Source of the DNA: Microbulbifer agarilyticus
GTDB lineage: Bacteria > Pseudomonadota > Gammaproteobacteria > Pseudomonadales > Cellvibrionaceae
DNA: 64,000 nucleotides
Assembly (NCBI RefSeq): GCF_001999945.1
Contig: NZ_CP019650.1
Coordinates: 372,001 to 436,000, forward strand
Reading direction: 5' to 3'
In this document: in pieces, positions 25,968 through 44,411 of the stretch
Numbering within the stretch: position 1 is the stretch's first letter
Layout: every line of letters starts with the position of its first letter
Notes under the pieces: model-generated
Databases searched by the model: none
What the model was told of the DNA's origin: nothing
Seen by the model: the letters and a program-made list of their open reading frames with translations, nothing else
Program-made: the position numbers and the translations under genes

Positions 25968-26054
25968 TGGTGCCCAGGAGAAGACTTGAACTTCCACGAC
26001 CTTGCGGTCACTAGCACCTGAAGCTAGCGCGTCTACCAATTCCGCCACCTGGGC
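25968..26054 (-). tRNA. tRNA-Leu (anticodon CAG), copy 1
   Basis: This 87-base minus-strand gene encodes its CCA end. The acceptor stem is GCCCAGG/CCTGGGC, the D-arm contains GGTAGACGCG, the anticodon loop TTCAGGT gives CAG, and a long variable arm typical of class II tRNAs and a GTTCAAGTC T-loop are present. It reads CUG codons. It is identical to the copy at 29150-29236. Confidence 0.97.
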
Positions 26055-28932: not shown

Positions 28933-28983
28933 GAGCTTGTTAGTAATTGTTTGAAGTTAAATGCTAGGGAATTGGCGCCGGCT

Positions 28984-29065
28984 ACAGCTTGGCGAGACCT
29001 TCTAAAACATGGATGTTTTAGAAGAGCCCTCAGGAGTGGGAATACGGCGTGTCTTGCCAAGCTGT
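28984..29065 (+). repeat. Structured 3'-UTR element, copy 1 (after ppc)
   Basis: Outer arms ACAGCTTGGCGAGAC (28984-28998) and GTCTTGCCAAGCTGT (29051-29065) pair with one G.U. Inside lie a 10-base-pair hairpin CTTCTAAAAC/GTTTTAGAAG with loop ATGGAT and an unpaired box CAGGAGTGGG followed by ACGGCG. The same plan recurs at 44108-44221 and, inverted, at 44266-44371. It starts 52 bases after the ppc stop. Confidence 0.8.
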
Positions 29066-29107
29066 GCCCGGTGGCAATGCCGCCACAGTCTTCGGCAAGT
29101 GCAAAAC

Positions 29108-29144
29108 AAAAAGGGACCAACTCTTGCGAGTTGGCCCCTTTTTT
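29108..29144. terminator. Bidirectional terminator beside tRNA-Leu copy 2
   Basis: A stem GGGACCAACTC/GAGTTGGCCCC with one A-C mismatch and loop TTGC is flanked by A5 and T6. It resembles the terminator at 25926 but has compensated base changes in the stem. Confidence 0.9.
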
Positions 29145-29149
29145 AAAGA

Positions 29150-29236
29150 TGGTGCCCAGGAGAAGACTTGAACTTCCACGACCTTGCGGTCACTAGCACC
29201 TGAAGCTAGCGCGTCTACCAATTCCGCCACCTGGGC
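29150..29236 (-). tRNA. tRNA-Leu (anticodon CAG), copy 2
   Basis: The 87 bases are identical to the gene at 25968-26054, including the encoded CCA. It has its own promoter and terminator. The flanks are similar but diverged, so this is an older duplication unit that includes promoter and terminator rather than a recent repeat. Confidence 0.97.
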
Positions 29237-29267
29237 AATTCAACGGTGTGCTCCGTTGAGGACGCGC

Positions 29268-29296
29268 ACTATAGTGATTTGCCTAAGGGGTGTCAA
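29268..29296 (-). promoter_or_regulatory. Sigma-70 promoter of tRNA-Leu copy 2
   Basis: TTGACA, a 17-base spacer and TATAGT lie on the minus strand with a GC-rich discriminator (GCGCGTCC), parallel to the promoter of copy 1. Confidence 0.82.
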
Positions 29297-29629
29297 CGCT
29301 TTTTGCGGCGCGGTTTGTGCCCTTTTTTGTCCACTCAGACCCTATCGCTTGTCGTATCCGCACCGATATTCCAAATCAACGGGGGAATTGGTCCGCAAAT
29401 CGCTTATAATCGCGGCAATGTGCAACGATTTCAGTGGCCCTGTGCCGCTTCCGGCATTCGCCACTCCAAATGCTCACCTTGGATTCTTGCCCGTGAACCT
29501 CATGCCTGGGAGTAAATCCCCGGCAGGCCTCCACCGAGACCTGGCAGTTGCACCCACTCACCTTCCTGCGCCGGATGATTCCGGGGCCGCGCAGAGCGCG
29601 TGCTTAAATGCAGAACATTGGAAGCAAAT
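29297..29629. other. Intergenic region upstream of rnr
   Basis: No convincing gene is seen in these 333 bases. A TATAAT at 29405-29410 could be a -10 box for rnr but lacks a good -35 at the right distance. Frames that cross the region lack ribosome sites and homology. Confidence 0.4.
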
Positions 29630-32542
29630 TTGAATCAAGATAAAACCAACCCCTCTGCGATCTCGGATGATCCTCATGCCGAGCGCGAGGCGGAGAAATA
29701 CGAAAAACCCGTTCCCAGCCGCGAGTTTCTTCTCGATGTGCTGGAGCAGCAGCCAGGCCCCGTAGCCTGGGAAGCGGTAGCGGACCTGCTCTCGATTGAC
29801 GATGAAGATCGCCGCGAGGGTGTGCGCCGTCGCTTGATTGCCATGAGCCGAGACGGACAGATCGCCAGCAACCGCGCTGGGGATTTCGGTGTGCTCGATA
29901 AAATGAGCCTGGTACGCGGTCGCGTAATCGGTCACCGCGACGGCTTCGGCTTTGTGTCCGCGGGCGACGGCGGCGACGACCTGTTCCTGTCTCACCGCCA
30001 GATGCGCAAAGTATTTGATGGCGACGAAGTGCTGGCTCGGGAAACTCCCGGCGGCTTCCGCGGCAAGCGCGAGGGCGCGGTGGTGCGGGTAATCAAGCAC
30101 AACACCCAGCAGCTGGCCGGACGCCTGTATCGCGAAGACGGCGTTTGCTTTGTGCGCCCGGATAACCCGCGTATGACCCTCGACGTATTGGTCGCGGAAG
30201 GCAAGTGTGCCGATGCACAAAGTGGCCAGTATGTGGTGGTGAATATCACCACCCAGCCGGGCCGCAATAATTTGCCGCAGGGTGAGGTTGCGGAAATTCT
30301 CGGCGACCACCTTGCCCCGGGGATGGAAATCGACGTTGCCATTCGCAACTACGGTATTCCCCATAGCTGGCCCGCCGCGGTACAGACGCAAACCGACACA
30401 ATCGCCGATGAGGTGCTGGAAGAAGACAAGGCGGCGCGCATTGATCTGCGCCAGCTGCCGCTGGTCACCATCGACGGTGAAGATGCGCGGGATTTTGACG
30501 ATGCCGTCTACTGTGAAGTGCTGCCGGATGGCAATTGGAAACTGCTGGTCGCCATTGCCGATGTATCTCATTACGTGCAGATCAATACTGCGCTGGACCA
30601 GGAAGCCCACCAGCGTGGCAACTCGGTGTATTTCCCTGACTTTGTTGTGCCGATGCTGCCGGAGAAACTCTCCAACGGTTTGTGCTCACTGAATCCGCAT
30701 GTGGATCGCCTGTGTATGGTGTGTGAAATGCACATCGATCCGTCCGGCAATATCCTCAACTTCCAGTTCTTTGAAGGCCTGATGCGCAGCCACGCGCGCT
30801 TTACCTATACCCAGGTTGGGGAAATGGTTGAGGAGCGGGATAACCGCGATAGTGGTGTTCGCAAGCAGTTTGCCGCACTTGCGCCACACATCGACAACCT
30901 GCACGACCTTTACGGTGCGCTGCGCGGTGCGCGCGATCGCCGCGGTGCCATCGATTTCGAAACCACAGAAACGCGGATCATGTTCGACGCTGCGCGGAAG
31001 ATCGAGCGCATCGTGCCGGTGCAGCGCAACGACGCGCACAAGATGATCGAAGAGTGCATGCTTGCCGCCAATGTGTGTGCGGCTGAGCTGATGGAGCTGG
31101 CGGAGTTGCCAGCGCTGTACCGCGTGCACGACATTCCCAAGCAGGAGCGGCTGGAAAACCTGCGCGAATACCTTGGCGAGCTGGGCTTGCGTCTGGAAGG
31201 GGGTAGTGAGCCCCAGCCCAGCCACTACCAGGAATTGCTTTCGCAAGCAGACGGTCGCCCGGATTTCCATATTATCCAGACTATGTTGCTGCGCTCGATG
31301 AACCAAGCGGTGTATCAGCCGGAGAATCGCGGTCATTTCGGGCTCGATTATCGCGCTTATGCACACTTCACCTCGCCGATTCGTCGTTACCCGGATCTGC
31401 TGCTGCACCGCGGGCTGCGCTGGCTGGTGCGCAATGGCAGCGCCAATCCGGCAGCGGTGGCAAAGAAAGTGCGCCAGGCACCCGGTGCCCAGGTAATGGA
31501 GCGCGAGCAGATTTTGCCGTACACCGCCGTTGCCATGGTGGAGTTGGGAGAGCACTGCTCGATGACCGAGCGCCGTGCCGACGACGCAACCCGCGACGTG
31601 GTCAGCTGGCTCAAGTGTGAATACTTGCAGGACCATGTGGGTGAGGTGTACCGCGGTGTTATCAGCGCGGTAACCGGCTTTGGCTTGTTTGTGGAACTGG
31701 AAGATCTCTATGTGGAGGGTCTGATCCATGTCACTGCCTTGCCAAAGGACTACTACCACTTCGAACAGGCGCAACAGCGCCTTGTCGGAGAGCGCAGCGG
31801 TACGCGTTTTCATCTAGGTGATGGAGTGACCGTGCAGGTGGCACGTGTGGATCTTGAGGAGCGTAAAGTCGATTTCACATTTGTCGAATTGCATCCGCGC
31901 CCCAGCTACCAGACACCCAAGTATCGCAAGCCTAAAGCCGATAAAAAGGCTGATAAAAAGTCAGACAAAGAATCCCGTAAGCAAGATGACAGCAAGGTTA
32001 GTAAACAAGCCGTGAAGAACAGTGTTACCGGTGAGCCGACATCGGCGCCAGATGTGGAAAACAAGGCGAAGAAAGCGGCGAAAAAATCCCGTTCCGGAGA
32101 GGAATCAACTCAGGTCAGTGGCCGCGCGATGGAAATGGCAGTGGAGTTTCAGGCCGAGCGCCAACGTCGTGGCAAGCACGACTTTAGCAAAGAGGCGGAA
32201 AAGGCCAGCCCCTGGGGTGGTGGACTGAAAACCAAGCGCACCGACAAGGTTGAAGATGAGCCGCGTCCGATTCGTAAGCGCAAGGTGGGCAGCGATGACG
32301 CTGAGGTAGTGCCGCCATCAGAAGAGATCGTTTCCGAAACGGAAGCCGGCGAAGAGTCTCCACCGAAAAAGCGTCGCCCGAAGAAAACACCACCGCGCAA
32401 AGGTGGCAAGCGTCCGGCAGTAGCCGCGCGCAAAGCTGCGCAGAAAGCAGAAAAGGCCGAAGCAGAGCAGCGTGCAGCCAAGAAAGCAGCGAAGAAAAAG
32501 CTGAAGAAAAAACTGGCGAAGAAATCAGGTGGGAAGAAATAA
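29630..32542 (+). CDS. rnr: Ribonuclease R
   Basis: A processive 3'-5' exoribonuclease that degrades structured RNA. It has an N-terminal winged-helix/cold-shock region (about 20-240), an RNB catalytic domain with the metal-binding cluster DGEDARDFDDAVY near residue 282, an S1 domain (about 665-752) and a very long Lys-rich tail (about 760-970). TTG at 29630 is preferred: GGAAG lies 5 bases upstream, whereas an in-frame GTG at 29600 has a weaker site and would add 10 residues. rlmB follows after 3 bases, as in other gammaproteobacteria. The roughly 200-residue basic tail is longer than the E. coli one. Confidence 0.95.
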   Translation: MNQDKTNPSAISDDPHAEREAEKYEKPVPSREFLLDVLEQQPGPVAWEAVADLLSIDDEDRREGVRRRLIAMSRDGQIASNRAGDFGVLDKMSLVRGRVIGHRDGFGFVSAGDGGDDLFLSHRQMRKVFDGDEVLARETPGGFRGKREGAVVRVIKHNTQQLAGRLYREDGVCFVRPDNPRMTLDVLVAEGKCADAQSGQYVVVNITTQPGRNNLPQGEVAEILGDHLAPGMEIDVAIRNYGIPHSWPAAVQTQTDTIADEVLEEDKAARIDLRQLPLVTIDGEDARDFDDAVYCEVLPDGNWKLLVAIADVSHYVQINTALDQEAHQRGNSVYFPDFVVPMLPEKLSNGLCSLNPHVDRLCMVCEMHIDPSGNILNFQFFEGLMRSHARFTYTQVGEMVEERDNRDSGVRKQFAALAPHIDNLHDLYGALRGARDRRGAIDFETTETRIMFDAARKIERIVPVQRNDAHKMIEECMLAANVCAAELMELAELPALYRVHDIPKQERLENLREYLGELGLRLEGGSEPQPSHYQELLSQADGRPDFHIIQTMLLRSMNQAVYQPENRGHFGLDYRAYAHFTSPIRRYPDLLLHRGLRWLVRNGSANPAAVAKKVRQAPGAQVMEREQILPYTAVAMVELGEHCSMTERRADDATRDVVSWLKCEYLQDHVGEVYRGVISAVTGFGLFVELEDLYVEGLIHVTALPKDYYHFEQAQQRLVGERSGTRFHLGDGVTVQVARVDLEERKVDFTFVELHPRPSYQTPKYRKPKADKKADKKSDKESRKQDDSKVSKQAVKNSVTGEPTSAPDVENKAKKAAKKSRSGEESTQVSGRAMEMAVEFQAERQRRGKHDFSKEAEKASPWGGGLKTKRTDKVEDEPRPIRKRKVGSDDAEVVPPSEEIVSETEAGEESPPKKRRPKKTPPRKGGKRPAVAARKAAQKAEKAEAEQRAAKKAAKKKLKKKLAKKSGGKK

Positions 32543-32545
32543 ATC

Positions 32546-33304
32546 GTGGCTCAGCAATTGGTTTATGGCTTGCACGCGGTGCAGGCCCTGTTAAAAAGTT
32601 CGCCCCAACAGGTGCAGGAGCTACTGCTGTTGCGCGGCCGCCGCGATCAAAAACTGCAGAAAATTATTCGTCAGGCGGAACAGAACGAAATCGTGATTCG
32701 CTTCGTGGATCGCCGTGCGCTGGATGAAAAAGTTGCCGATGAGGGTAACCACCAGGGCGCGGTGGCCATCTGTGTGGGTGATACCAAGATTTATGATGAG
32801 CAGTTCCTGAAGTCCTTGCTGAAAGACCTGGATACTAATGGCGAAGCGCCTTTCCTGTTGATCCTCGATGGGGTTACCGACCCGCACAACCTGGGCGCCT
32901 GTCTGCGCTCCGCGGATGCGGCCGGCGTGCATGCAGTCATTGCGCCCAAGGATAAAGCCGCGGGTCTCACGCCGACGGCGCGCAAGGTGGCCTGCGGGGC
33001 CGCCGAAGTGTTGCCGTTTATTACTGTCACCAATCTGGCGCGTACGCTGCAAATGTTGCAGCAAGCCGGTGTGTGGATATACGGCGCTGCCGGTGAGGCA
33101 GAACAGGATGTGTACCAGTCTTCTCTGACCGGGCCGCTAGCGCTGGTGATGGGTGCCGAAGGTCCTGGCTTGCGTCGTCTGACGCGGGAAAACTGCGATC
33201 ACCTGATCAAAATCCCCATGGCGGGTGAGGTTAGCAGCCTGAACGTTTCTGTTGCCACAGGTGTTTGCCTGTTTGAGGCTGTGCGACAGCGTCGGAACGG
33301 TTAA
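32546..33304 (+). CDS. rlmB: 23S rRNA (guanosine-2'-O-)-methyltransferase RlmB
   Basis: It methylates the ribose of G2251 in 23S rRNA. The 252-residue SPOUT protein has an N-terminal substrate-binding domain (Y-G-L-H-A-V-Q-A-L-L) and the three SPOUT motifs: DGVTDPHNLGACLRSADAAG, VMGAEGPGLRRL and the knot segment I-P-M-A-G-E-V-S-S-L-N-V-S-V-A. The start is GTG, 3 bases after rnr, so the two are co-transcribed. Confidence 0.96.
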   Translation: MAQQLVYGLHAVQALLKSSPQQVQELLLLRGRRDQKLQKIIRQAEQNEIVIRFVDRRALDEKVADEGNHQGAVAICVGDTKIYDEQFLKSLLKDLDTNGEAPFLLILDGVTDPHNLGACLRSADAAGVHAVIAPKDKAAGLTPTARKVACGAAEVLPFITVTNLARTLQMLQQAGVWIYGAAGEAEQDVYQSSLTGPLALVMGAEGPGLRRLTRENCDHLIKIPMAGEVSSLNVSVATGVCLFEAVRQRRNG

Positions 33305-33313
33305 TCTGCCGAA

Positions 33314-33353
33314 AACGGCGCCTCTTTCGTGATATATCACGCAAAGCGCCGTT
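33314..33353. repeat. Nested palindrome after rlmB
   Basis: Outer arms AACGGCGC/GCGCCGTT enclose a perfect 14-base palindrome CGTGATATATCACG. No T-run follows, so it may be a 3' mRNA stabiliser, a weak terminator or an operator. Confidence 0.5.
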
Positions 33354-33520
33354 GATGCCATCTTCTTAATATTCCCCCACAACGCCTTTCTATCAAATCC
33401 CTCCTCACTTCCGTAGCTTGCGTATGGCCGCAGGTTCACTGCTGCGCTGCACAAGTGGTGCTCGCCTGAATGCGGCAATAAAAATACTCAAAACGATAAA
33501 AACGATGTGAGGAAGACGCG

Positions 33521-34651
33521 ATGAACAAAAGGAAGTTACGCGGTTGTCTCGCCCTGGTGGCGGCAACCTTTTTACTGGTCGGCCTGAAAGCGCAGGCTCA
33601 GTCTTGCCCAGCTAGTCACCCGCTCGCTTGTGGCGGCGCCTGCTATGTGGATGCGGCGCAAGCGGCATCTGGTGGTTGTACCGTCGACGGCGGCGGTTCC
33701 GGTAGCAGTTCCAGCAGCTCAAGTAGTTCCAGTAGCAGTTCCAGTGGCGGTGGCAGCTCTAGTGGCGGGAGTTCTGGCGGGAGCAGTTCAAGCAGTAGCT
33801 CCAGCAGCGGCGGCAATGCGCTGAGCTGCCACAGCGATGAAAACCCGTCCCACGTCGAATCCGGTCGCCGCACCGAGTTCACTCAGGAGTGGTGTGACAC
33901 CATATGTGTAACCTACGTGGGTAACGGCACCGGCTGTTTGAATGCTGCTGGTACCTTTGTGAGCAATGCCAGTATTTGTAGTGATCCGGCCAACGCACGC
34001 GAAGCGATTATTGATATCGAATACAACCTGGGCATCGAAGTCGATGACGAATTCCAGGCGCTGGCGGGGTATCAGGGGCCGGTTCCATCGATCAACCCGA
34101 CAATTTCCGTGGCCGATGCGGAGACCTATTTCAGCGCTTTGATCGGAGTGGAGCGGGGTGTCGAATTGGTGCGCCTGTTAAACACCAATGGCGATAGCAT
34201 TGTGACCCGCAACGAAGCGAGTCAGGCCAAAGGCTCCGACCCGCTGCAATTGCTGAATACCGATTTTGGTTGTGGTTTGTCTACCGATGACATCATGGCT
34301 TATGTCGGCCTGTATATGGGTGACGGTGCCATCGATAAATATGCCGGCGACCTGGATGAATCCGTGAAGGCGGCGATGCTGGAGTTCACCCGCAGCTGGC
34401 AGCCCGGTGTTTCTGCACAGGATTGTGAGTATCGCGGTGGTTGTGACGGCAGTGCGCAGCCCGAACCTCAGCCTGAGCCCCAGCCGGAACCAGAGCCTCA
34501 GCCGGAACCAGAGCCTCAGCCTCAACCGGAGCCAGAACCTGAACCGCAACCCGCGAACAGTTGCCCGGCTTCACATCCTTTGTTTTCTGCTGCCTGTAAC
34601 CAGTGCTTTACCGACGAAGCCCAGGCCGCCTCGGCGCAGTGCGTAATCTAA
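33521..34651 (+). CDS. Secreted cysteine-rich protein with duplicated end module and low-complexity linkers
   Basis: Function is not recognised. The 376-residue product has a signal peptide (about 1-27, ending A-Q-A-Q) and a Cys module starting SCPASHPL and ending Y-V-D-A-A-Q-A-A-S-G-G-C. A Ser/Gly linker (about 56-98) follows, then a central Cys-containing domain with N-T-N-G-D-S-I-V-T-R-N-E, which resembles an EF-hand loop. A Pro-Glu-Gln linker (about 314-347) and a second copy of the Cys module ending T-D-E-A-Q-A-A-S-A-Q-C complete the chain. Such linkers are typical of secreted modular proteins of Cellvibrionales. It starts at ATG after GAGGAAG and overlaps the next gene, so it may be translationally coupled to it. 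Confidence 0.75.
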   Translation: MNKRKLRGCLALVAATFLLVGLKAQAQSCPASHPLACGGACYVDAAQAASGGCTVDGGGSGSSSSSSSSSSSSSSGGGSSSGGSSGGSSSSSSSSSGGNALSCHSDENPSHVESGRRTEFTQEWCDTICVTYVGNGTGCLNAAGTFVSNASICSDPANAREAIIDIEYNLGIEVDDEFQALAGYQGPVPSINPTISVADAETYFSALIGVERGVELVRLLNTNGDSIVTRNEASQAKGSDPLQLLNTDFGCGLSTDDIMAYVGLYMGDGAIDKYAGDLDESVKAAMLEFTRSWQPGVSAQDCEYRGGCDGSAQPEPQPEPQPEPEPQPEPEPQPQPEPEPEPQPANSCPASHPLFSAACNQCFTDEAQAASAQCVI

Positions 34652-35271
34652 GACTGCCATTGCTGGCGATCACCATCGCACTTTCCGGTGCGGGGGTGAT
34701 CGCCCATTGGCTAATGCCATCATCACTGGTGTTATTGCCTCGCGCGGGCTCCGCGCAGGGTGAGCGAAGTGCGGTGGCGGCATCGCCCCGCTCGGCTGAT
34801 CTTCAGCAGGTTATCTCTGTCAGCTCCCTATCAAACTCTTCACCAAGTGCGCCTTCGGTGCACCCGGCAGTCCCGGCAATCAGCGCGGGCGAGTTTATTG
34901 GTCGCAAACACGGCGCAGTTATTCAGGACGACTTTGGAAATTTTCGCGTGGATCTTTCTACTCGAGGATTTGCCTCGCGAGAGTATCTGGTGTCAGCGCG
35001 CCCGATTTATTACCCGCAGGAAGTTATGTTGGATAGTCCGGCACAAATTCAGGGGTGTCCACTGGTCGGTTATTACATTGAGGGCGGTTCGCACGGCAGT
35101 CTGCTAGTAGTTTCTGCAGGCGGCTTCCGCGTATTTCATTATCGCTGTCAATTTGATGTCGCGCGTAGCGTATTTCACCTGCAAAAGCTTGCCGATAACC
35201 CAGTACTGGACGGTAGCCTGAATCAACTATTAGCTGCAGCGGCAACGCTGCCGGCAAAAAAATCACAATGA
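34639..35271 (+). CDS. Exported protein of unknown function
   Basis: No family is recognised. The likely start is GTG at 34639 inside the end of the upstream gene, giving 210 residues that open with V-R-N-L-R-L-P-L-L-A-I-T-I-A and a hydrophobic export segment or membrane anchor. A Ser/Pro-rich linker leads to a compact domain (about 95-185) with two Cys residues, in Q-G-C-P-L-V and Y-R-C-Q-F-D. An upstream in-frame ATG at 34603 would place charged residues before the hydrophobic segment. The stop overlaps the next start (ATGA), so genes 33521-36737 form one unit. Confidence 0.6.
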   Translation: MRNLRLPLLAITIALSGAGVIAHWLMPSSLVLLPRAGSAQGERSAVAASPRSADLQQVISVSSLSNSSPSAPSVHPAVPAISAGEFIGRKHGAVIQDDFGNFRVDLSTRGFASREYLVSARPIYYPQEVMLDSPAQIQGCPLVGYYIEGGSHGSLLVVSAGGFRVFHYRCQFDVARSVFHLQKLADNPVLDGSLNQLLAAAATLPAKKSQ

Positions 35272-36737
35272 CTAATCAAGCAATATCAATTTCTTCAGCG
35301 CTCAGGGCAGTCGTCCGCGGATGGCACGTTTTGATTGTGGCGTGTGTATCCCTGGGCTTTTCGAGCGCGGTACCGGCGAGTGAGCACACTGTGCCCCTCA
35401 CGGCATCCGGAGGGGTAAAAGTGGGGAGTATTATCTGCCCCGCGGAGCCTCATGACACGATTGTGCCGGTAGTTATCCCGAGCGATGTACATGATGCTGC
35501 GTCCGCGCCAGAGATGACTATTGCAGGATTGTGGGGCTTGATTCAGCAGCAGGGCCTTACATCAATTGATCAGCTGTTACCTTACCTGCCCGATCACTTT
35601 CGTACGAACTTCTCTCTTGTGGAGCACACGCGTGCGACCGGGCAATCCAACCTGGAGTTTCCGCGTGTTGTGCTGTTTGGATCCGATGGACACTTGTTGT
35701 TGAACATCGGCACCAAGCCGGATGATCCGAAATATAACCTGCTGGACGTTGCCCAATTACATGAGGGCAGTGGGCGCTGGGAGTTTTCCGTATTTGATTT
35801 TTCCAGTGAGAGGCCCCGCTTAATGCGCAATGACGCTAGCTGTATTGAATGCCACGGCGCCGACAACAGTCGCCCGGTGTGGGGTACCAACCTGGATTGG
35901 CCAGGTGTGTTTGGTGACAACATTGCCGCTGGCCCGCAGGGGGAGGCGCTGGATTCGCGGCACCTTGAACAGATACACGCAATCATGGCGGGTGATGGCA
36001 AGTCTTCGCGCTTTGATTTCCTCGAGTGGCGCCACGAGCCGCTGCGTCGCGGTGGCAAGCGACGAATAGCCCGGCATGCGTTCGGTGCCGAATTGATTCT
36101 TTCCAATATCGCCATGGGGAGTGCGACCGCGCGCGGTGTATTCCAGCGCCTACGTAGTGAAAATCTCCAGCATTTTCGCCAGCAGCGTATGGCATTGTTG
36201 TACAGCTACTTTGCCCGCAAGGGACACCTTCCCTGGGGAGAGGGGAACGCACGCTTACTTGGGTTAACGCCAGACACCAGTGCTGAGCAGGCGATGGATA
36301 AGTTATTGGCGCATTTGGGGGTGGATACCTCTGAGGCGTTCTCAGTGGCGACCCTGCATCTTTTGGAGCCCGCGCAAACCCATTGGAGTATGGGGCGCGG
36401 GGATTTGTACGACCTCGTCGCACTGCAAGTGCTCGATGATCTAAAGCGGGAGGATGCGGAAGTGGCGGCTATTCTTGCCGGTCGCAAGGTAGCTGAGGGT
36501 GTGCTCGGTTGTCCGGTTACTGCGGGTAGTGTTGCCGAGGTCGTGGATTTTAAAATGCTGCATCTTTTTTATTTGCGTGGTCATGCGCGTTTCCTCGTGC
36601 ACGAACAGTTTTATCCACTCGACTTGGAAGATGTGTATTCCCGCGTTTTTCTACCGGTAGCCCACCCGTTGCTGAGTTACCTTGGCGAGTCTTTGCAGAT
36701 ACAAGCTTCGGTTCCTGATGGTCGCGGCGCGGGGTAA
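35268..36737 (+). CDS. Exported mono-haem cytochrome c-like protein
   Basis: The 489-residue product has an N-terminal hydrophobic segment (about 17-37) ending A-S-A-V-P-A-S, consistent with Sec export. A single haem attachment motif C-I-E-C-H at 192-196 is followed by G-A-D-N-S-R-P-V-W-G. The rest is Trp- and His-rich and predicted globular; a distal haem ligand cannot be assigned. It overlaps the upstream gene by ATGA. No enzyme family is recognised; peroxidase-like and electron-carrier roles are both possible. The haem motif is seen directly; covalent haem binding is inferred. Confidence 0.65.
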   Translation: MTNQAISISSALRAVVRGWHVLIVACVSLGFSSAVPASEHTVPLTASGGVKVGSIICPAEPHDTIVPVVIPSDVHDAASAPEMTIAGLWGLIQQQGLTSIDQLLPYLPDHFRTNFSLVEHTRATGQSNLEFPRVVLFGSDGHLLLNIGTKPDDPKYNLLDVAQLHEGSGRWEFSVFDFSSERPRLMRNDASCIECHGADNSRPVWGTNLDWPGVFGDNIAAGPQGEALDSRHLEQIHAIMAGDGKSSRFDFLEWRHEPLRRGGKRRIARHAFGAELILSNIAMGSATARGVFQRLRSENLQHFRQQRMALLYSYFARKGHLPWGEGNARLLGLTPDTSAEQAMDKLLAHLGVDTSEAFSVATLHLLEPAQTHWSMGRGDLYDLVALQVLDDLKREDAEVAAILAGRKVAEGVLGCPVTAGSVAEVVDFKMLHLFYLRGHARFLVHEQFYPLDLEDVYSRVFLPVAHPLLSYLGESLQIQASVPDGRGAG

Positions 36738-36882
36738 CACCCGTTGTCGCTGTTCTGCGCATTGCCCTGAGGTTTTGAGACCTGCTTTGCGCAGTTTTCC
36801 CGCTCCTTGCGCAAATAGCCTGCTTTAATTTCCTTGTCTTTCCGCTCCATTGATTGCTTTTGATGACGCGAGGTAAAGGATT

Positions 36883-37593
36883 ATGTCAGCAAAACAAGCA
36901 CACCGTTTTTTCCAAATCATCCCTTCTGTATGTACACGCCATGTCGTTTCTGCCGGCTTGGTTGGCTTGGCTGTAGGCGCACTATCGTTGTCTAACGTTA
37001 CCGTTGCACAGCAAGAGGTGGCCTTGCCTGATGAGGGTCCGGCACTTGATGTGCAGGCTGACGTGGTCGACCCGGATGTGACCCTGCAAGTGGTTGAAGA
37101 TGCGCAAAGCGTCGAAGACCTGCTCAACAGCATTGAATTGCCAGAGGAGGTGCGAGCGCTCGCGGAACAGCGGCTCGCTGCGGCGCTTGCAGCGATTAAG
37201 GCTGCGCGCGAGGCGTCTCCATCCAATGCGGACGAGGTCCCTAGTTCTGGCGAGGTCTCCAGTGAGGTTGCCGAGCGTAGGGAAGCCATGCTGGCCGAGA
37301 TGGCCGAACGGCGCGGTGAAATGATGGCAAACGCGCAGAATGCCGCGCTCGCCGCAAATGAACAGGCACAGCAGGCGGTGGAGTCTGCCCGTGAGGCGGT
37401 CGAGGAGGCATTGAAAAATGGCCTCACCAGTGACGAGATGCAGGGCATGATCGAGCAGATGGTGCAGGACATTCTTGGCAGTCTGCCCGCCGATGCGGGT
37501 GCAGATATGAGTGAAGTGGATACTCTGCTCGAATCCTTGCGTGGGGATGTGGCGGCCGAGCCGGTTGATGTGAGTGACGCTACCGGTAGCTGA
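36883..37593 (+). CDS. Secreted Ala/Glu-rich coiled-coil protein
   Basis: This 236-residue protein has a long signal peptide (cleavage near T-V-A-Q-Q). It is then acidic, with helical coiled-coil character from about 85 to 195 (many A-x-x-R/E-E-A-x-x-A heptads) and three Met-rich turns (E-A-M-L-A-E-M, G-E-M-M-A-N, M-Q-G-M-I-E-Q-M). There is no cysteine after export and no recognised family. It starts at ATG after AAAGGA. The next gene, an outer-membrane barrel, starts 46 bases later, so a periplasmic partner of that barrel is plausible (inference). Confidence 0.65.
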   Translation: MSAKQAHRFFQIIPSVCTRHVVSAGLVGLAVGALSLSNVTVAQQEVALPDEGPALDVQADVVDPDVTLQVVEDAQSVEDLLNSIELPEEVRALAEQRLAAALAAIKAAREASPSNADEVPSSGEVSSEVAERREAMLAEMAERRGEMMANAQNAALAANEQAQQAVESAREAVEEALKNGLTSDEMQGMIEQMVQDILGSLPADAGADMSEVDTLLESLRGDVAAEPVDVSDATGS

Positions 37594-37639
37594 GTCCACA
37601 GTTCCTTCGAGCGAAACCCGCAGTGTCACGAGGCAAGGA

Positions 37640-38953
37640 ATGCGCGAGTTTATCAAGTTGTTTGTGCTGATCACCATGTTGGTGCTGGTGTCGGTGTTTG
37701 GTCCCGCGCGGCTGGCTGCGGCGGAGTTGTCCAGCGCCGCAGGCGCGTTTAAGAGTGGTGATTATCCTCGTGCGCTGGCCCTGTTCCAGCAAATGGAGCA
37801 GGCCGGCGATCAAACTGCGCGGCTGAAGTTCAATCTCGGGGTCACTCTCTACAAATTGGGCCGCTACGCCGAGGCGTCCGAATATTTTTGGTTATTGGTG
37901 CCAGAGCCCAAGTGGCGTGATTTGGCAGAATATAACCTTGGGCTGATGGCGAGCAGGCAGGGCGATCCAGCGCTTGCTGCGCGCTACTTTCGCCGGGTGA
38001 GTGAGCACGCAGATTCGCCCAAGCTGCAACGCCTTGCGGCGCTCCAGCTGGGAGCCAGTACGGAGCGTGCATCAGCGCCGCGTCCCTGGCTTGCCATGGC
38101 CAGTGTCAACGGCGGCTTCGACAACAACCCTTACGCGGTGAAGACCGAGTTACTGGGCGAAGATGCGGTCGGCGATGACAACTTCCTCGAGCTATTTGCC
38201 TGGGGGCAGTACCGCCTTGCCGGTAGCGACATCGATGGCTGGCGATTGCAGGGCTACGGTTTTACCCGGCGCTACAGTGAGCTGGACAGCCTGAATCTGG
38301 GAAGCCTCAGTGCTTCGCTAATTCGCGATAGCCGCTGGCGAGGATGGCAGCTGGAGACCGGCGGTGGCGGCGAGCAGGTTTCCCTCGGCGGTGAGCAGGT
38401 GAGCCGGCAGTTGCAGCTGACCGCGCGGGCCGCGCGGGCGTTCGGCGCAGTGCGGGTACAGCTGTCTTATATCCCCGCCTACTACTCCGGTGGTGAGCGT
38501 TACGGCTATCTCGATGGCTGGCGGCAGCGCTTCTCGGCGCGCGCGCGCCGCAATACGCTCGGCGCGGACCTCGGTATCTATTACCTGTATGACAGCAATG
38601 ATCGCGAGGATTTACAGCAGGCGGCGGGGGACTATTACAGTTACTCACCCGCGCGCCACGCTTTCGGCAGCGATGTGCGCTGGCGCTTTCTCAGCCGCTG
38701 GGAGTTGCGCGCTGGCCTGGAGTATCGCTATAGCGTGTATGACGGAACCAATCGGGTCAGTGACAGCAGCGGCGAGTTGCTCGAATACGAACGCGAGTCG
38801 GATAGAGTGAAATCCTGGGTGTCGACCCGCTATCGGCTGACACCGCGGTTGAGCCTCGATGGCAAGCTACTGCGCATCGACAATCGGGAGAATCGTGAGA
38901 TTTACGACTACGACAAGACGGAGCTGAGCCTTGGTGTCAGTTACGTGTTCTGA
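37640..38953 (+). CDS. TPR-containing outer-membrane beta-barrel protein
   Basis: Start at ATG 37640 (GAGG 6 bases upstream) gives 437 residues with a signal peptide ending L-A-A-A. About three TPR motifs (G-A-F-K-S-G-D-Y-P-R-A-L and L-G-R-Y-A-E-A-S) occupy 30-135. A barrel of alternating aromatic strands runs from about 150 and ends in Y-V-F, the usual outer-membrane assembly signal. The plan recalls surface-lipoprotein assembly modifiers (Slam) and other TPR-barrel proteins, but no Slam signature can be confirmed. Longer upstream frames overlap the previous gene and lack an export signal. Confidence 0.7.
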   Translation: MREFIKLFVLITMLVLVSVFGPARLAAAELSSAAGAFKSGDYPRALALFQQMEQAGDQTARLKFNLGVTLYKLGRYAEASEYFWLLVPEPKWRDLAEYNLGLMASRQGDPALAARYFRRVSEHADSPKLQRLAALQLGASTERASAPRPWLAMASVNGGFDNNPYAVKTELLGEDAVGDDNFLELFAWGQYRLAGSDIDGWRLQGYGFTRRYSELDSLNLGSLSASLIRDSRWRGWQLETGGGGEQVSLGGEQVSRQLQLTARAARAFGAVRVQLSYIPAYYSGGERYGYLDGWRQRFSARARRNTLGADLGIYYLYDSNDREDLQQAAGDYYSYSPARHAFGSDVRWRFLSRWELRAGLEYRYSVYDGTNRVSDSSGELLEYERESDRVKSWVSTRYRLTPRLSLDGKLLRIDNRENREIYDYDKTELSLGVSYVF

Positions 38954-38979
38954 GGGGGCAGAAAGGGGTAAAAAATGAA

Positions 38980-38995
38980 GGGGCACAAGTGCCCC
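38980..38995 (+). terminator. Hairpin after the TPR-barrel gene
   Basis: A GGGGCAC/GTGCCCC stem with a two-base loop starts 26 bases after the stop. There is no strong T-run, so termination is possible rather than certain. Confidence 0.4.
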
Positions 38996-39069
38996 CCTAC
39001 GGTGTTGTCCCGCTTGTTATTCTTCGGTCCTTGCTCGTTATTGTTATTGTTTAGAATTATTTTCGCGAC

Positions 39070-39948
39070 CTATGCCTGTATGACGTCTGGCGCGCTATCC
39101 CCCTCAATCCATTGTTCAATTATTTCTACTACCGGTTCCGGGTTCTTGATCCAGCTCAGGTGTGGGTTGCCATGCGGGAAGGTGGGGGCGACTTCGCGGA
39201 CTTCCCCTTGAACCAGGGCCGCTAGCCGGCGCGTGGCGCCAACCGGGGCGAAGGGGTCGCCTTTTATGCACAGGTGCAGGGGCCGGTGGGCTAGCGTAGC
39301 CTGCTTGGGGATGCGTGCCTCTGGGGCAAAGCGGCCGCGCAGTATGCCGTTGCCCCAGTCGCGCATCAGTGTCGCCGCTTCGCGGCCACCAAAGCGCATC
39401 TGCCGTCCGGGGAAATAGCCGAGCAGGCGGGTACTGGTGTGCGCAGCCAGTGCCGCGCCCATAATCGCCAGACGGGTAGGTCCGCGCCAACTGCGGCAAT
39501 CCAGGTGGCCCGCCGCCACGCTCACCACCCGCGCATCCCCGGTTAACCCGGCCCGGGCGGCCAAGGTCATGGTCTGCCCGCCGATGCTGTGGCCCAGCAT
39601 TAGTGCTGGGCCGTGGCCGAGAGTGCTTTTCAGTGCCTGCAAAACCTCGGGGATCAGCTCGAAAACCAGATCGCTGTAGCCGTAGTCGTTGCCCCGTCTG
39701 GGGTGCGGTGTACTTTTGCCGGTGCCCGGCATCTCGTAGATCGCGGTCTGGTACCCGCGCTCACCCAGTGTGGTGAGCAGTTGCTGGTACTTGATCGCCG
39801 GCACGCCGAGTGCCGGCGCCACCAGTACCAGAGGTCGGGCGTGTGACTGATTGGGCGGACTACATAGTGTCAGCGGCACATTGAACCCGTGAAAGGGCAG
39901 GTTGATGGTATGGGGCTGCACCGACAAAGATACCTCCGGTATATACAT
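39070..39948 (-). CDS. Alpha/beta-hydrolase fold protein
   Basis: The 292-residue cytosolic protein has a nucleophile elbow G-H-S-I-G-G-Q with Ser121, an oxyanion region A-P-A-L-G-V-P and a probable catalytic His near the C-terminus in F-P-H-G-N-P-H-L-S-W. It resembles serine aminopeptidase/lysophospholipase-like hydrolases; the substrate is unknown. It is encoded alone on the minus strand, divergent from rpsF. Confidence 0.8.
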   Translation of the reverse strand: MYIPEVSLSVQPHTINLPFHGFNVPLTLCSPPNQSHARPLVLVAPALGVPAIKYQQLLTTLGERGYQTAIYEMPGTGKSTPHPRRGNDYGYSDLVFELIPEVLQALKSTLGHGPALMLGHSIGGQTMTLAARAGLTGDARVVSVAAGHLDCRSWRGPTRLAIMGAALAAHTSTRLLGYFPGRQMRFGGREAATLMRDWGNGILRGRFAPEARIPKQATLAHRPLHLCIKGDPFAPVGATRRLAALVQGEVREVAPTFPHGNPHLSWIKNPEPVVEIIEQWIEGDSAPDVIQA

Positions 39949-40130
39949 GGAAAGCTGGAACCAAGAGTCAAACTATAGTCACGTTTTCTCCTGCTCCCCT
40001 TGACCGAACCACCCCACTTGCTGGGCTATTTTTCTGTCGCCAGTGGCGCCTGCAGGGTGGTCGCCACGTAGTAAGTGAGTACTCGCAAATGTATGTGTCC
40101 CGATTTGCGGCGGCCGCCGCATTGTTCAAC

Positions 40131-40159
40131 TTGCAACCACTCCGGTAGAGGCATAGAAT
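40131..40159 (+). promoter_or_regulatory. Sigma-70 promoter of the rpsF operon
   Basis: TTGCAA, 17 bases and TAGAAT are followed by a GC-rich discriminator (ACGCCGCCCG), a form expected for a ribosomal-protein promoter. The rest of 39949-40130 shows no gene. Confidence 0.65.
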
Positions 40160-40292
40160 ACGCCGCCCGCAATAGCGCCATCCCGGGTGTTGTTGCGTAC
40201 TCCTTGCCTCACTGGGCGGTTGCTGCACTTTTCTACTTATTAGACAGGGCGGCGGCAAGCCGGGAGGCTGTGTTAACCCGTAAGGAGCGAAA
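40160..40292 (+). promoter_or_regulatory. rpsF leader, possible S6:S18 autoregulatory RNA
   Basis: About 130 untranslated bases precede rpsF. CTTGCC at 40203-40208 can pair with GGCAAG at 40254-40259, closing a GC-rich structure just before the ribosome site AAGGAG. Many bacteria control rpsF-rpsR through an S6:S18-binding leader; whether this leader is one is inferred, not shown. Confidence 0.35.
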
Positions 40293-40742
40293 ATGCGTCA
40301 TTACGAAATTGTATTCCTGGTTCACCCGGACCAGAGCGAGCAGGTACCCGGCATGGTCGAGCGTTACACTGCGACCATCAAAGAGAGCGGTGGCAGCGTT
40401 CACCGTCTGGAAGACTGGGGCCGCCGTCGTCTGGCTTACCCGATCAACAAGATCCACAAGGCTCACTACATTCTGATGAATGTTGAGTGTACTGAAGAAG
40501 CGCTGGGCGAACTGACCACCAACTTCAAGTACAACGACGCCGTGCTGCGCAACCTGGTGATCCGCGAAGATGAAGCGGTTACCGAAGAAAGCCCGATCAT
40601 GAAGGCTGAAAAAGAGTCCCGCGAGCGCAAAGCTGCGCGCGCAGAACGCTCTGAGCGTCGCGAGCGCGCCGAACGTGAAGAATCTTCTTCCGAAGGCGCC
40701 CAGGAAGCTAAGTCTTCCGACACCACTGAAGACGAAGAGTAA
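40293..40742 (+). CDS. rpsF: 30S ribosomal protein S6
   Basis: S6 binds 16S rRNA with S18. The 149-residue product starts [20 protein letters not shown] and contains [13 protein letters not shown]. After residue 100 it has a long acidic/basic tail ([10 protein letters not shown]) as in many gammaproteobacteria. The ribosome site AAGGAG is well placed. Confidence 0.97.
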
Positions 40743-40754
40743 GGGGATAGTCAG

Positions 40755-40985
40755 ATGGCACGTTTTTTCCGTCGTCGTAAGTTCTGCCGTTTCACCGCTG
40801 AAGGCGTAAAGCGTATCGACTACAAAGATCTCGATACCCTGAAAGCCTACGTTTCTGAAACTGGCAAAATCGTACCGAGCCGTATCACTGGCACCAAAGC
40901 CAAGTATCAGCGTCAGCTGGCCACCGCGGTCAAGCGCGCGCGTTACATTGCGCTGCTGCCGTACACGGACAGCCACGAAGCCTAA
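40755..40985 (+). CDS. rpsR: 30S ribosomal protein S18
   Basis: The 76-residue S18 starts [13 protein letters not shown] and includes I-D-Y-K-D-L-D-T-L and the basic end [11 protein letters not shown]. It lies 12 bases after rpsF. The single Cys in KFCRF is as in zinc-free S18 proteins. Confidence 0.97.
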
Positions 40986-41028
40986 GCATCGCTTTGCTTC
41001 GTATTGATTGTTATAGAGAAGCTATCTA

Positions 41029-41877
41029 GTGCGCGCTATCGCTGAATTTGCCATGCGATCGCGCGTGCGCGCGGTGATCCTCACCATGGTGGGAATCCCG
41101 CTGATCAGCCCCGCGGTGCTTGCACTGGTGGGGTTACGCCGCGGCAGTGGCGACGGCCTGTTTGTACTGGTCTGGGGTCTACTGCCGATTGTTGCCGCAG
41201 CCGGCGCGGGCTATATGTCCCCGCTGATGGCTGGTATGGCGATCACGCACTTTGTGGCGGTGTTGGTCAGTGCTCTGGTCCTGCGCGAAACTAGCGCTTG
41301 GAGCTGGACACTGGTGACCCTGACCACGGTGACCGCCGCGGGTATTCTGGTGACCTCACAGGTGACTGGCGGTGTACTGGGCAATCTGCTCGAGGCGGTC
41401 AATGAGGCCGCGGGCGGCGCCAGCACACCGGAAGCGCAGCAGCTGGGTAAAGCATTTACCAGCGAAGCGCAGGCTACCGGTTACCTGGCCTGGGTCTCGG
41501 TAATCAGTGCCATGTTGGCTCTGTTATTGGGGCGCTGGTGGCAGGCCCTGTTGTACAACCCCGGTGGTTTGCAGCAGGAAATGCACAACCTGCGTATGCC
41601 GTTGCCGCTCGCAGCTGCCGGTATGCTGTTGTGGATTTACTGCCTAGTCAGTGAACACTTTGTGTTCTGGGGCGCGGTTGCCGCTTTCCCGATCATGGTG
41701 GCAGGCATTTGCCTGATTCACTGGCTGGTAGCCCAGAGGGGCTGGGGACGCGGTCCGCTGATTGCCCTGTATGTGATGCTGGTAATTGCGGCACTGCCGC
41801 TGGCAGGTTTCCTGTGCGGACTGGCACTGATCGATAGCTGGATTGATATTCGCGCACGCGCAAGCGACAAACGCTGA
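41029..41877 (+). CDS. DUF2232-like integral membrane protein
   Basis: The 282-residue protein has seven or eight hydrophobic segments and begins at GTG 43 bases after rpsR. A membrane protein of this type sits between rpsR and rplI in Pseudomonas and relatives. The role is unknown; the place inside a ribosomal-protein operon suggests shared expression with the translation machinery rather than a translation function. Confidence 0.8.
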
Positions 41878-41911
41878 GCGGCGCACAAGAACTGAAACTG
41901 AGGGTTCCGAG

Positions 41912-42358
41912 ATGGAAGTTATTCTGCTCGACAAAGTAGGCAAACTGGGCAACGTGGGCGACCGCGTTGAAGTAAAAGCCGGTTACGGCCGCAACTTCCT
42001 GCTGCCTACCGGTAAAGCCGTACTGGCCAACGCAGCAAACGTTGCTGAGTTCGAAGCCAAGCGCGCTGAACTGGAAGCAGCTGCTGCTGCAAAAGTAAGC
42101 GAAGCTGAAGGCCGCGCTGCCCAGCTGGTTGAACTGGCTGTGACCATCGCCGCTAACGCTGGCGACGAAGGCAAGCTGTTCGGCTCCATCGGCACTCGCG
42201 ATATCGCGGAAGCGATCACCGCTGCCGGTGTTGCAGTAAGCAAGGCTGAAGTGAAGCTGCCGGAAGGCGCTCTGCGTGAACTGGGCGAGTACGACGTAGA
42301 CGTACAGCTGCACGCCGACGTAATCAGCAGCGTGAAGGTTGTTGTAGAAGCCGAATAA
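41912..42358 (+). CDS. rplI: 50S ribosomal protein L9
   Basis: The 148-residue L9 starts [20 protein letters not shown], the standard N-terminus that binds 23S rRNA. A long connecting helix ([14 protein letters not shown]) and a C-terminal domain follow. The ATG at 41912 is chosen over longer in-frame starts because it reproduces the family N-terminus exactly and has GAGGG upstream. Confidence 0.97.
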
Positions 42359-42436
42359 GGCTCTGCAGTTACCGAATCGCCATAGCGAGGCCTGCGGGGA
42401 ACGGAATTGCCCGTTCTCCGTCTAGCCGCGCTACAA

Positions 42437-42494
42437 TCAGGCGCTGGATTCTCCCAGCCGGTTTTTTGCCGGTGATGGAGGGTACAGCGCCTGA
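42437..42494. repeat. Inverted repeat between rplI and dnaB
   Basis: TCAGGCGCTG and CAGCGCCTGA enclose a 38-base loop that contains CCAGCCGG and a T6 run. It may act as a partial terminator between the ribosomal genes and dnaB. Confidence 0.45.
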
Positions 42495-42515
42495 CTTGTT
42501 TGTGAGTCCGGCAAA

Positions 42516-42574
42516 TGGTTTCAGCCCCCGGCGCACTTGGCCTGTGAGCCCGTGGTGGGGCAGGCCTGAAACCA
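42516..42574 (+). promoter_or_regulatory. Inverted repeat abutting the dnaB start codon
   Basis: TGGTTTCAG (42516-42524) and CTGAAACCA (42566-42574) pair perfectly, and the right arm touches the ATG at 42575. Folding would hide the dnaB initiation region, a possible translational control. Confidence 0.4.
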
Positions 42575-44068
42575 ATGACCGCAACGACCGGTAGTAACAC
42601 AGAGCAGCGAACAGCAGCGAACATGAACGAATACGCTCCGCAAGAAGAAGAGGCTCAGCAAGCCACCGCCAGCTCCCCGCTGCCACACTCGGTCGAGGCC
42701 GAGCAGTCGGTGTTGGGTGGACTGATGCTCGACGCCAGCCGCCTCGATGCGGTTGCCGAGCAGCTGAGTGCGGAAGATTTCTTCGTCGCCAGCCACCGGA
42801 TTATTTTCGGTGTCATGCTCGAGTTGTCCGGTGGCGAGCAGCCGCTGGATATCGTTACCCTCGCGGAAGGACTCGCCAATCGCGACCTGCTGGCCGACAT
42901 TGGCGGCCCGGCATACCTGGCCGAACTTGCAGAAAACACCCCTTCTGCCGCCAACATCGTCGCCTACGCGAAAATCGTGCGCGAGCGCTCTATGTTGCGT
43001 CAGCTGATTGCCGCCGCCGGTGAAATCAGCCGTACCAGTTTCAACCCTGGCGGTCTTGGCTCCGTCGACCTGCTGCAGATGGCCGAGCGCCGCGTGGCAG
43101 AGATTGCCGAAGGTCGCGCCAAAGAGGGCGGCTTTGTCGGTGTCGACTCGCTGCTGAAGAAAACCGTCGAGCGTATCGACGAACTGTTCAAATCCGAGGG
43201 TGACCTCACTGGTCTCAGTTCTGGTCTCACCGAACTCGACGAGCGCACCTCTGGCTGGCAGCCCGGTGAACTCATTATCCTCGCCGCCCGTCCTTCCATG
43301 GGTAAGACTGCACTGGCACTGAACTTCGTTGAAGCCGCCATGCTCAGCCAGGAAAAACCGACCCTGGTGTTCAGTATGGAGATGCCGTCGGACAGCCTGG
43401 TCATGCGTATGTTGTCTTCCATCGGCAAGATCGACCAGGGGCGTATCCGGAACGGCAAGCTGCAGGAAGAGGATTGGCCCAAGCTCTCCAGTGCCGTGCA
43501 GAAGATGAAGGGCAAGGGGCTCTATATCGACGATACCCCGGGCCTGTCGCCGTCTGAGGTGCGGGCGCGCGTGAAGCGCACGGTGCGCGACCACACCAAC
43601 AAGCTGATGCAGGCGGACCCCAAACTGAGCCGCGAAGACGCGGAACAGCGCGCGCTGCCGGCGATGGTGATGGTGGATTACCTGCAGCTGATGCAGGTGA
43701 AGGGCAGCACCGAAGGGCGTACTCAGGAGATCTCGGAAATTTCCCGCTCCTTGAAGGCGCTGGCCAAAGAATACGAATGCCCGGTGATTGCCCTGTCGCA
43801 GTTGAACCGGGGGGTGGAACAGCGTCCGAACAAGCGCCCGATGAACTCGGACCTGCGGGAATCCGGTGCGATCGAGCAGGATGCTGACGTAATCCTGTTT
43901 ATTTACCGCGATGAGTATTACAACGAAGACAGCCCGGATAAGGGCCTGGCGGAGTTGATTATCGGTAAGCAGCGTAACGGTGAGATCGGTACCTGCCGCG
44001 CGGCGTTTGTGGGTAAATTCACCCGCTTTGATGATCTGGCGCCTGAGTACTATCAGGAAGAGCACTAG
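42575..44068 (+). CDS. dnaB: Replicative DNA helicase DnaB
   Basis: The hexameric 5'-3' helicase of the replisome. The 497-residue chain has a DnaB N-terminal domain (P-H-S-V-E-A-E-Q-S-V-L-G-G) and a RecA-like motor with Walker A A-R-P-S-M-G-K-T at about 237-245, plus later DnaB motifs (MVDYLQLM and LSQLNRGVEQRPNKRP). A start at 42575 or at 42623 (MNEYAPQEE) is possible; the upstream one is kept but its ribosome site is weak. A structured 3'-UTR element starts 40 bases after the stop. Confidence 0.96.
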   Translation: MTATTGSNTEQRTAANMNEYAPQEEEAQQATASSPLPHSVEAEQSVLGGLMLDASRLDAVAEQLSAEDFFVASHRIIFGVMLELSGGEQPLDIVTLAEGLANRDLLADIGGPAYLAELAENTPSAANIVAYAKIVRERSMLRQLIAAAGEISRTSFNPGGLGSVDLLQMAERRVAEIAEGRAKEGGFVGVDSLLKKTVERIDELFKSEGDLTGLSSGLTELDERTSGWQPGELIILAARPSMGKTALALNFVEAAMLSQEKPTLVFSMEMPSDSLVMRMLSSIGKIDQGRIRNGKLQEEDWPKLSSAVQKMKGKGLYIDDTPGLSPSEVRARVKRTVRDHTNKLMQADPKLSREDAEQRALPAMVMVDYLQLMQVKGSTEGRTQEISEISRSLKALAKEYECPVIALSQLNRGVEQRPNKRPMNSDLRESGAIEQDADVILFIYRDEYYNEDSPDKGLAELIIGKQRNGEIGTCRAAFVGKFTRFDDLAPEYYQEEH

Positions 44069-44107
44069 CCCCCGGATGTTGAATCGGGTTGAGAAGCTTA
44101 GAGATAA

Positions 44108-44221
44108 GGTGACGATGCCAGGTAAAGGTTTGTGAGACCTTCTAAAACAGGGATGTTTTAGAAGAGCCCCCAGGGATGGGTTCACGGCGTGTCTCACAAA
44201 CCTTTACCTGGTGGCGTCACC
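44108..44221 (+). repeat. Structured 3'-UTR element, copy 2 (after dnaB)
   Basis: The outer arms include CCAGGTAAAGGTTTGTGAGA and its perfect complement TCTCACAAACCTTTACCTGG, extended with two mismatches to 44108 and 44221. Inside are the hairpin CTTCTAAAAC/GTTTTAGAAG with loop AGGGAT and the box CAGGGATGGGTT followed by CACGGCG. The outer stem sequence is unrelated to that of copy 1 but pairs equally well. Confidence 0.85.
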
Positions 44222-44265
44222 GCCACGGCTCTGGGTTTGGAGCTTTGTTATAGCTTGGTGGTGGC

Positions 44266-44371
44266 CAAGCGCCGGCTGCGGGTTTTCAGGACCGCTGTTA
44301 ACCCATCCCTGGGCGCTGCGGCGGCGACGTCCATGTCGCCGACGCTCCTGAAAACCCGCAGCCGGCACTTG
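44266..44371 (-). repeat. Structured 3'-UTR element, copy 3 (after the L,D-transpeptidase gene)
   Basis: On the minus strand the outer arms are 26 bases long (one mismatch), closing on TTTTCAGGA/TCCTGAAAA. The inner hairpin is GGCGAC/GTCGCC with loop ATGGAC, followed by the box CAGGGATGGGTT and AACAGCG. The orientation matches the minus-strand gene that ends 40 bases away. Confidence 0.82.
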
Positions 44372-44411
44372 TCCTTCGATTCGAGCTTTGAGCGCTGCTA
44401 TCTATTCGCGA

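Follow-up and report, generated by a model that had tools for sequence, protein, structure and literature searches.

A window of 64,000 nucleotides from Microbulbifer agarilyticus (NZ_CP019650.1, positions 372,001 to 436,000) contains three copies of an element of ~130 nt, in which a long outer stem encloses two hairpins with GGA in their loops. The element is real, large, widely distributed and constrained as a structure in a strand-specific manner. The arms of its outer stem differ from copy to copy yet pair, and selection acts on only one of the two strands in its folded form. We tentatively favour the reading that it is a two-site CsrA/RsmA-binding RNA, a high-copy relative of the Rfam family TwoAYGGAY. 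A palindrome that is recognised as folded DNA is the main competing explanation.

Fold and copies of the element

On the sense strand, the ~29 bp outer stem is followed by hairpin 1, hairpin 2 and the returning arm. An earlier note on this DNA had located the three copies correctly, with outer stems that are unrelated in sequence yet paired. It also gave the inner stem as we find it, CTTCTAAAAC/GTTTTAGAAG in copies 1 and 2 and GGCGAC/GTCGCC in copy 3, with loops that contain GGA. The stretch CAGGGATGGGTT, which it took for an unpaired box, folds into another hairpin, CCC-AGGGAT-GGG, whose loop is of the same type as that of hairpin 1. The parts of the three copies are listed with their window positions; arms were placed by arm pairing and hairpins by the fold, and the gene names ppc, dnaB and L,D-transpeptidase are the labels of the earlier note.

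28963..29092, plus strand: copy 1, whole element (covariance model R1), behind ppc; G000:C1:400963-401092, 115.7 bits
28969..28997, plus strand: copy 1, outer stem, 5' arm
28999..29024, plus strand: copy 1, hairpin 1, loop CATGGATG
29026..29048, plus strand: copy 1, hairpin 2, altered loop AGGAGT with GGA kept
29052..29080, plus strand: copy 1, outer stem, 3' arm
44103..44232, plus strand: copy 2, whole element, behind dnaB; G000:C1:416103-416232, 136.2 bits
44109..44137, plus strand: copy 2, 5' arm
44139..44164, plus strand: copy 2, hairpin 1, loop CAGGGATG
44166..44188, plus strand: copy 2, hairpin 2, CCC-AGGGAT-GGG inside GCC/GGC, the former unpaired box
44192..44220, plus strand: copy 2, 3' arm
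44252..44379, minus strand: copy 3, whole element, behind L,D-transpeptidase; G000:C1:416252-416379, 103.7 bits
44346..44374, minus strand: copy 3, 5' arm
44318..44345, minus strand: copy 3, hairpin 1, loop CATGGACG
44294..44316, minus strand: copy 3, hairpin 2, CCC-AGGGAT-GGG
44263..44291, minus strand: copy 3, 3' arm

The model spans of these copies lie ~30-35 nt from the adjoining stop codons. Identical tRNA-Leu(CAG) genes at 25971-26054 and 29153-29236 (minus strand) flank ppc and copy 1.

The three copies that the earlier note described belong to a large chromosomal family. A 62-nt core of copy 2 has 50 blastn matches in its own genome. Model R1 was built from 26 of the first 30 loci, four with odd cores being excluded. 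It gives 91 matches in the 4,255,625-base genome, which correspond to 73 distinct copies (72 full-length, one partial) and 18 reverse-strand images of the same palindromes. With 150 of 1287 first-look candidates scored, the genome holds at least 73 copies. All counts over 72 copies omit the partial one, and the column table omits 14 copies with odd cores.

The stem length is fixed at ~29 bp in the 58 regular copies. Of the 72 copies, 68 have GGA in loop 1 and 71 have it in loop 2, similarly in all gene contexts. Both loops usually read ANGGAY; by script search, loop 2 is exactly CANGGAYG in 53/72 copies. Both motifs are present in 69 copies, 47 of which have them 24 nt apart, measured from GGA to GGA. 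The stem of hairpin 2 alternates between CCC/GGG and UAC/GUA, the latter in other lineages, with a constant closing C-G pair (21/21). Hairpin 1 falls into discrete sequence types, and near-identical cores are found between unrelated arms.

Two further sequence features accompany some copies. At the loci L007, L008 and L014, the 3' strand of the junction has an extra ~14 nt of the GGGGGCGCCTAGTT type, which the orthologous copies of relative G040 lack at two sites (L090 vs L229, L071 vs L134). Upstream, TACGNAGTR with at most one mismatch has 20 matches within 60 nt before the 72 copies, all of them 19-21 nt before the 5' end of the element. The 7-mer ACGAAGT precedes 12 copies of the own genome, whereas no 7-mer exceeds 5 occurrences in 20 shuffles.

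Covariation and constraint on one folded strand

The covariation that the earlier note saw in three copies is far above chance in the family. In alignments fitted to the model, which favours structure, 92.5% of the cells of the 72 copies are paired (shuffled mean 68.0%) and 646 cells carry double changes (shuffled mean 180.5), with 0/500 shuffles as high in either measure; 21 matches in 14 relatives give 94.6% paired against 57.0% shuffled, and 261 double changes against 74.4. For the 72 copies, both measures collapse when the partner is slid by one to three columns.

Wobble pairs distinguish the two strands. In the arms of the 72 copies, G.U pairs on the sense strand outnumber wobbles of the other-strand kind by 128 to 9, and the split by gene context is 43:3, 45:5, 32:1 and 8:0. 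The 58 regular copies have 101:2, or 58:2 after removal of two conserved wobble columns. Distant copies have 48:9 in 38 of 59, the other 21 being dropped for weak arms; this is a recount, since an earlier figure of 93:12 was biased by allowing sense wobbles in the choice of arm ends. Symmetry of a duplex, or homogenisation of the arms by template switching, would give equality of the two kinds. We conclude that selection acts on one folded strand, for which RNA is a more natural reading than single-stranded DNA (ssDNA).

Comparison with close relatives shows how the copies change at their sites. Relative G032 has 72 copies at E<=1e-8, with flanks mostly 90-97% identical. Of these, 66 map between flanks of the own genome and 6 do not, and one of the 66 sites is without an own-genome copy. 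The 65 shared sites hold the same element in 35 cases, a different one in the same orientation in 24 and a different one in the opposite orientation in 6; an element counts as the same from 85% coverage and from 88% identity, a cut-off that about six of the 30 different sites narrowly miss. The 35 sites with the same element comprise 1015 arm pairs, of which 52 are changed: 23 are exchanges between Watson–Crick and G.U, 10 compensatory doubles, 4 Watson–Crick to A.C or the reverse, 12 changes to other mismatches and 3 other. The rate of change in the arms themselves predicts ~1 double, whatever its kind. Changed sites amount to 33/1896 in the core and 62/2030 in the arms. In 15 pairs with G040, 31 of 434 arm pairs are changed, 12 between Watson–Crick and G.U and 6 by compensation. 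These arm changes in both relatives indicate that the copies are constrained where they stand.

Where elements are exchanged, orientation is retained at 24 of 30 sites (p 0.0014), which favours conversion or recombination over fresh insertion. By eye, no clean empty site with target duplication is seen at four presence/absence sites between the own genome and G032: one has an extra element in G032, two are deletion-like and one looks like fusion of a pair. At the dnaB site of congeners, the interval as far as the following gene is readable by eye in 16 of 30 loci (the reading of L249 was misplaced), with two elements at 6, one at 7, none at 2 and a remnant at 1. The earlier proposal of a mobile palindrome that inserts into terminator hairpins finds no support here. 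The ~29 bp stem is fixed in the regular copies, and no pre-formed palindrome of that size is found at the four presence/absence sites or in the 16 dnaB-site congeners.

At the dnaB site, the element-free intervals of G045 (L250) and G038 (L248) carry a short hairpin, GGCCCATCCCTGGGCC or GGCCCGTCCCTGGGCC. Its reverse complement is a stem-loop of the hairpin-2 type with an AGGGAY loop, either a remnant or a minimal form. At the loci L447-L452 of G058, elements follow one another in alternating orientation as tandem inverted pairs, each unit being roughly 0.5 kb long.

Distribution and gene context

R1 has matches in 63 of 96 genomes of relatives and in 18 of 49 genera (E<=1e-4, with 35 candidates in each genome scored). 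The wider model R2 finds from 0 to at least 132 copies in 26 congeners, all copy counts being lower bounds. An exact 24-mer of the core occurs in at least 116 stretches of GTDB genomes across the gammaproteobacteria. Among the 80 matches listed are Microbulbifer, Cellvibrio, Marinimicrobium, Marinobacter and Halopseudomonas, and further Rheinheimera, Oceanisphaera, Alteromonas, Stenotrophomonas and Xanthomonas. Records of Bacillus subtilis and Klebsiella with this 24-mer are probably contaminated assemblies. A 30-nt core has no blastn match in phages and plasmids at E<=0.01, and two exact core patterns have no match in viral contigs.

Copies lie mostly close behind a stop codon, in either orientation. 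With genes called by our own codon-usage caller rather than taken from annotation, the 73 copies comprise 29 sense and 24 antisense copies between codirectional genes (p 0.58), 16 between convergent and 4 between divergent genes. For distant taxa, 61 of the 80 listed loci were entered and 19 excluded (own genus, one Cellvibrionaceae record, contig edges); the 50 classed loci are 26 antisense, 9 sense, 11 convergent and 4 divergent. The claim that the element is always in sense thus holds for the three copies of the window, each with its own gene, and fails beyond it: direction does not follow the upstream gene, and an always-sense element of the 3' untranslated region (3' UTR) is rejected on these numbers. 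A link of orientation to replication is also unsupported, as both signs occur on both replichores, judged by eye from the GC skew of the fetched loci. A simple sigma-70 matrix gives no promoter enrichment over shuffles before the copies.

Proposed CsrA binding, competing explanations and known systems

CsrA/RsmA is described in passages of PMC7366521 and PMC11882435 as binding ANGGA in hairpin loops, with two sites per dimer. A CsrA/RsmA-binding RNA should carry two or more ANGGA motifs in its apical loops, as the element does, and the own genome has csrA. The Rfam model of TwoAYGGAY (RF01731) aligns to the element end to end, over positions 1-168, and on the correct strand. All 6 of its matches in the own genome lie at R1 copies on their strand, compared with 1 of 14 control genomes, under threshold. 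The best score, 37.0 bits, is below the gathering threshold of 43, no match reaches gathering in the window or in 18 distant loci, and we therefore do not file the element as a TwoAYGGAY member. Among other Rfam families, only tRNAs reached threshold, the remainder being weak chance families. TwoAYGGAY itself appears as a probable RNA in a table row of PMC2864571, and passages of PMC4333381 mention the proposal that it binds CsrA.

On this reading, the element would work as a folded RNA from its own sense strand, and the outer helix of arbitrary sequence would display two hairpins exposing ANGGAY (or AGGAN). With GGA and GGA mostly 24 nt apart, the two loops would be docking sites for one CsrA/RsmA dimer, and the copies could jointly form a distributed pool that titrates or parks CsrA. 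Sense copies would ride in the 3' UTR of the upstream gene; antisense copies would need transcription arriving from the opposite direction, such as from a promoter of the following gene that fires divergently. Of the interpretation in the earlier note, the folded single-strand element with covariation that plausibly binds a protein survives; its orientation claim fails and its terminator insertion is unsupported. Of the two conditions that the note set for its own refutation, the one on orientation is borne out and the one on covariation is not.

Matches to csrA (PF02599) are expanded to 5-27 per genome in 11 congeners (G003, G004, G006, G008, G009, G013, G029, G036, G042, G043 and G044), compared with 0-2 in the other members of the genus searched. 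By R2, the element count is 78 in G006 and 1-15 in the other ten. The relation between csrA and element counts is not significant in 24 genomes (Spearman -0.32, p 0.13), and 20 loci around csrA paralogs (L453-L472) have no R1 match.

Several observations weigh against CsrA binding. Most csrA-rich genomes are element-poor, contrary to the naive expectation for a sponge. The family can be dispensed with, as congeners with very few copies show (G030 0, G010 2, G018 2). The direction of the element is independent of the adjacent gene, and in distant taxa most copies are antisense; upstream of antisense copies the simple matrix gives no sigma-70-like promoter signal, which leaves the transcription of about half of the copies unproven. 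Eight distant loci have no TwoAYGGAY match even at E<=1. Finally, G.T is favoured over A.C in ssDNA as well, so the wobble asymmetry does not prove RNA.

The main rival is possible, and we regard it as less probable than CsrA binding. The element could be a strand-specific ssDNA palindrome, a long-stemmed relative in kind of the repetitive extragenic palindromes (REPs) and their paired forms (REPINs), whose folded sense strand is recognised by an enzyme that moves or rearranges it. Gene orientation would then be irrelevant, which fits the free orientation of the copies. Ten inverted pairs 20-71 bp apart occur among the 73 copies, seven of them with GAAGG ends inward and CCGCCAC ends outward. 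Inverted pairs are also found in other genera, G058 has tandem arrays of them, and relatives have different elements at 30 of 65 shared sites by our cut-off. The outer end of the element reads GTGG on the other strand, like the foot of a REP. REP arms, however, are conserved in sequence, unlike those of the element, and no linkage to REP-associated tyrosine transposases (RAYTs) is seen. The 40 loci around PF01797 (Y1-transposase) genes contain one R1 match (32.8 bits), and G011, G035 and G021 have 50, 20 and 33 copies without a PF01797 match. Constraint in place, retention of orientation at exchanged sites, the lack of a clean empty site with target duplication among the four sites and the lack of close core matches in phages, plasmids and viral contigs further argue against it. 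The sole PF01797 match of the own genome is at G000:C1:353909-354238 (L173), ~18 kb before the window, in an open reading frame of ~280 aa next to genes resembling PP2C and FHA, which may form a type VI secretion cluster. Similar frames of ~250-320 aa are present in many congeners, and there is no R1 element within L173.

Less probable still is a sense-strand structured RNA with another role, in which the ANGGAY loops are read by something other than CsrA, be it for binding of another protein or for RNA processing or stability. The strand and fold evidence is neutral as to the partner, and the conservation of the three-way junction (GAGCC..ACGGCG) exceeds what the loops require. We consider this unlikely, given that two loops with an identical motif equal the signal of a known dimer. 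A symmetric double-stranded palindrome, that is, a bidirectional terminator or cruciform with arms kept alike by replication template switching, would account for long paired arms near gene ends in both orientations; it is very improbable, since it predicts equal wobble kinds where 128:9 is found, leaves the conserved core unexplained, and has a T-rich stretch (five or more T among 7 nt, in the 40 nt downstream), as an intrinsic terminator would, in 10/72 copies only.

If CsrA binding holds and the copies are a CsrA sink, the buffering of a global regulator would fall to dozens of repeats instead of a few small RNAs, and the number of repeats would itself be a regulatory trait. A more far-reaching version, which we hold to be doubtful, is that tens to more than 100 dispersed two-site CsrA-docking RNAs with private stems serve many gammaproteobacteria as a copy-number-tuned buffer that sets free CsrA, with the csrA expansion (up to 27 matches per genome) as the other arm of the balance. 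If the element is a DNA palindrome instead, it represents a class of long-stemmed repeats with sequence-free arms that nevertheless stay paired on one strand, and the view of TwoAYGGAY itself may have to be revised. In either case, comparing the numbers of G.U and A.C in the arms is an inexpensive way to tell which strand folds, and it can be applied to other palindromic repeats.

Among known systems, REPs and REPINs (including bacterial interspersed mosaic elements, BIMEs) share with the element intergenic position, high copy number, both orientations and inverted pairs; the element differs in its sequence-free arms, ~29 bp stem, two-hairpin core and lack of RAYT linkage. The attC sites of integrons are imperfect palindromes with a variable stem and conserved landmarks that are folded on one strand, and in this they resemble it. 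Unlike attC, the element occurs mostly as single intergenic copies; visual inspection of the alignments revealed no attC core motif, and no integrase search was made. CsrB, CsrC and RsmX/Y/Z likewise expose ANGGA in hairpins, as passages of PMC7366521 describe, whereas the element has two sites in each of tens of dispersed copies, and we found no features of a stand-alone gene in it. The closest likeness in architecture is to TwoAYGGAY, in which a long outer stem likewise encloses two hairpins that have (A)NGGAY loops. This arrangement is found in the own copies and in other genera, with ANGGAY loops that are wider than the AYGGAY of TwoAYGGAY. Compared with that family, the element has a shorter hairpin 2 and unrelated arms, and it is a dispersed high-copy repeat.

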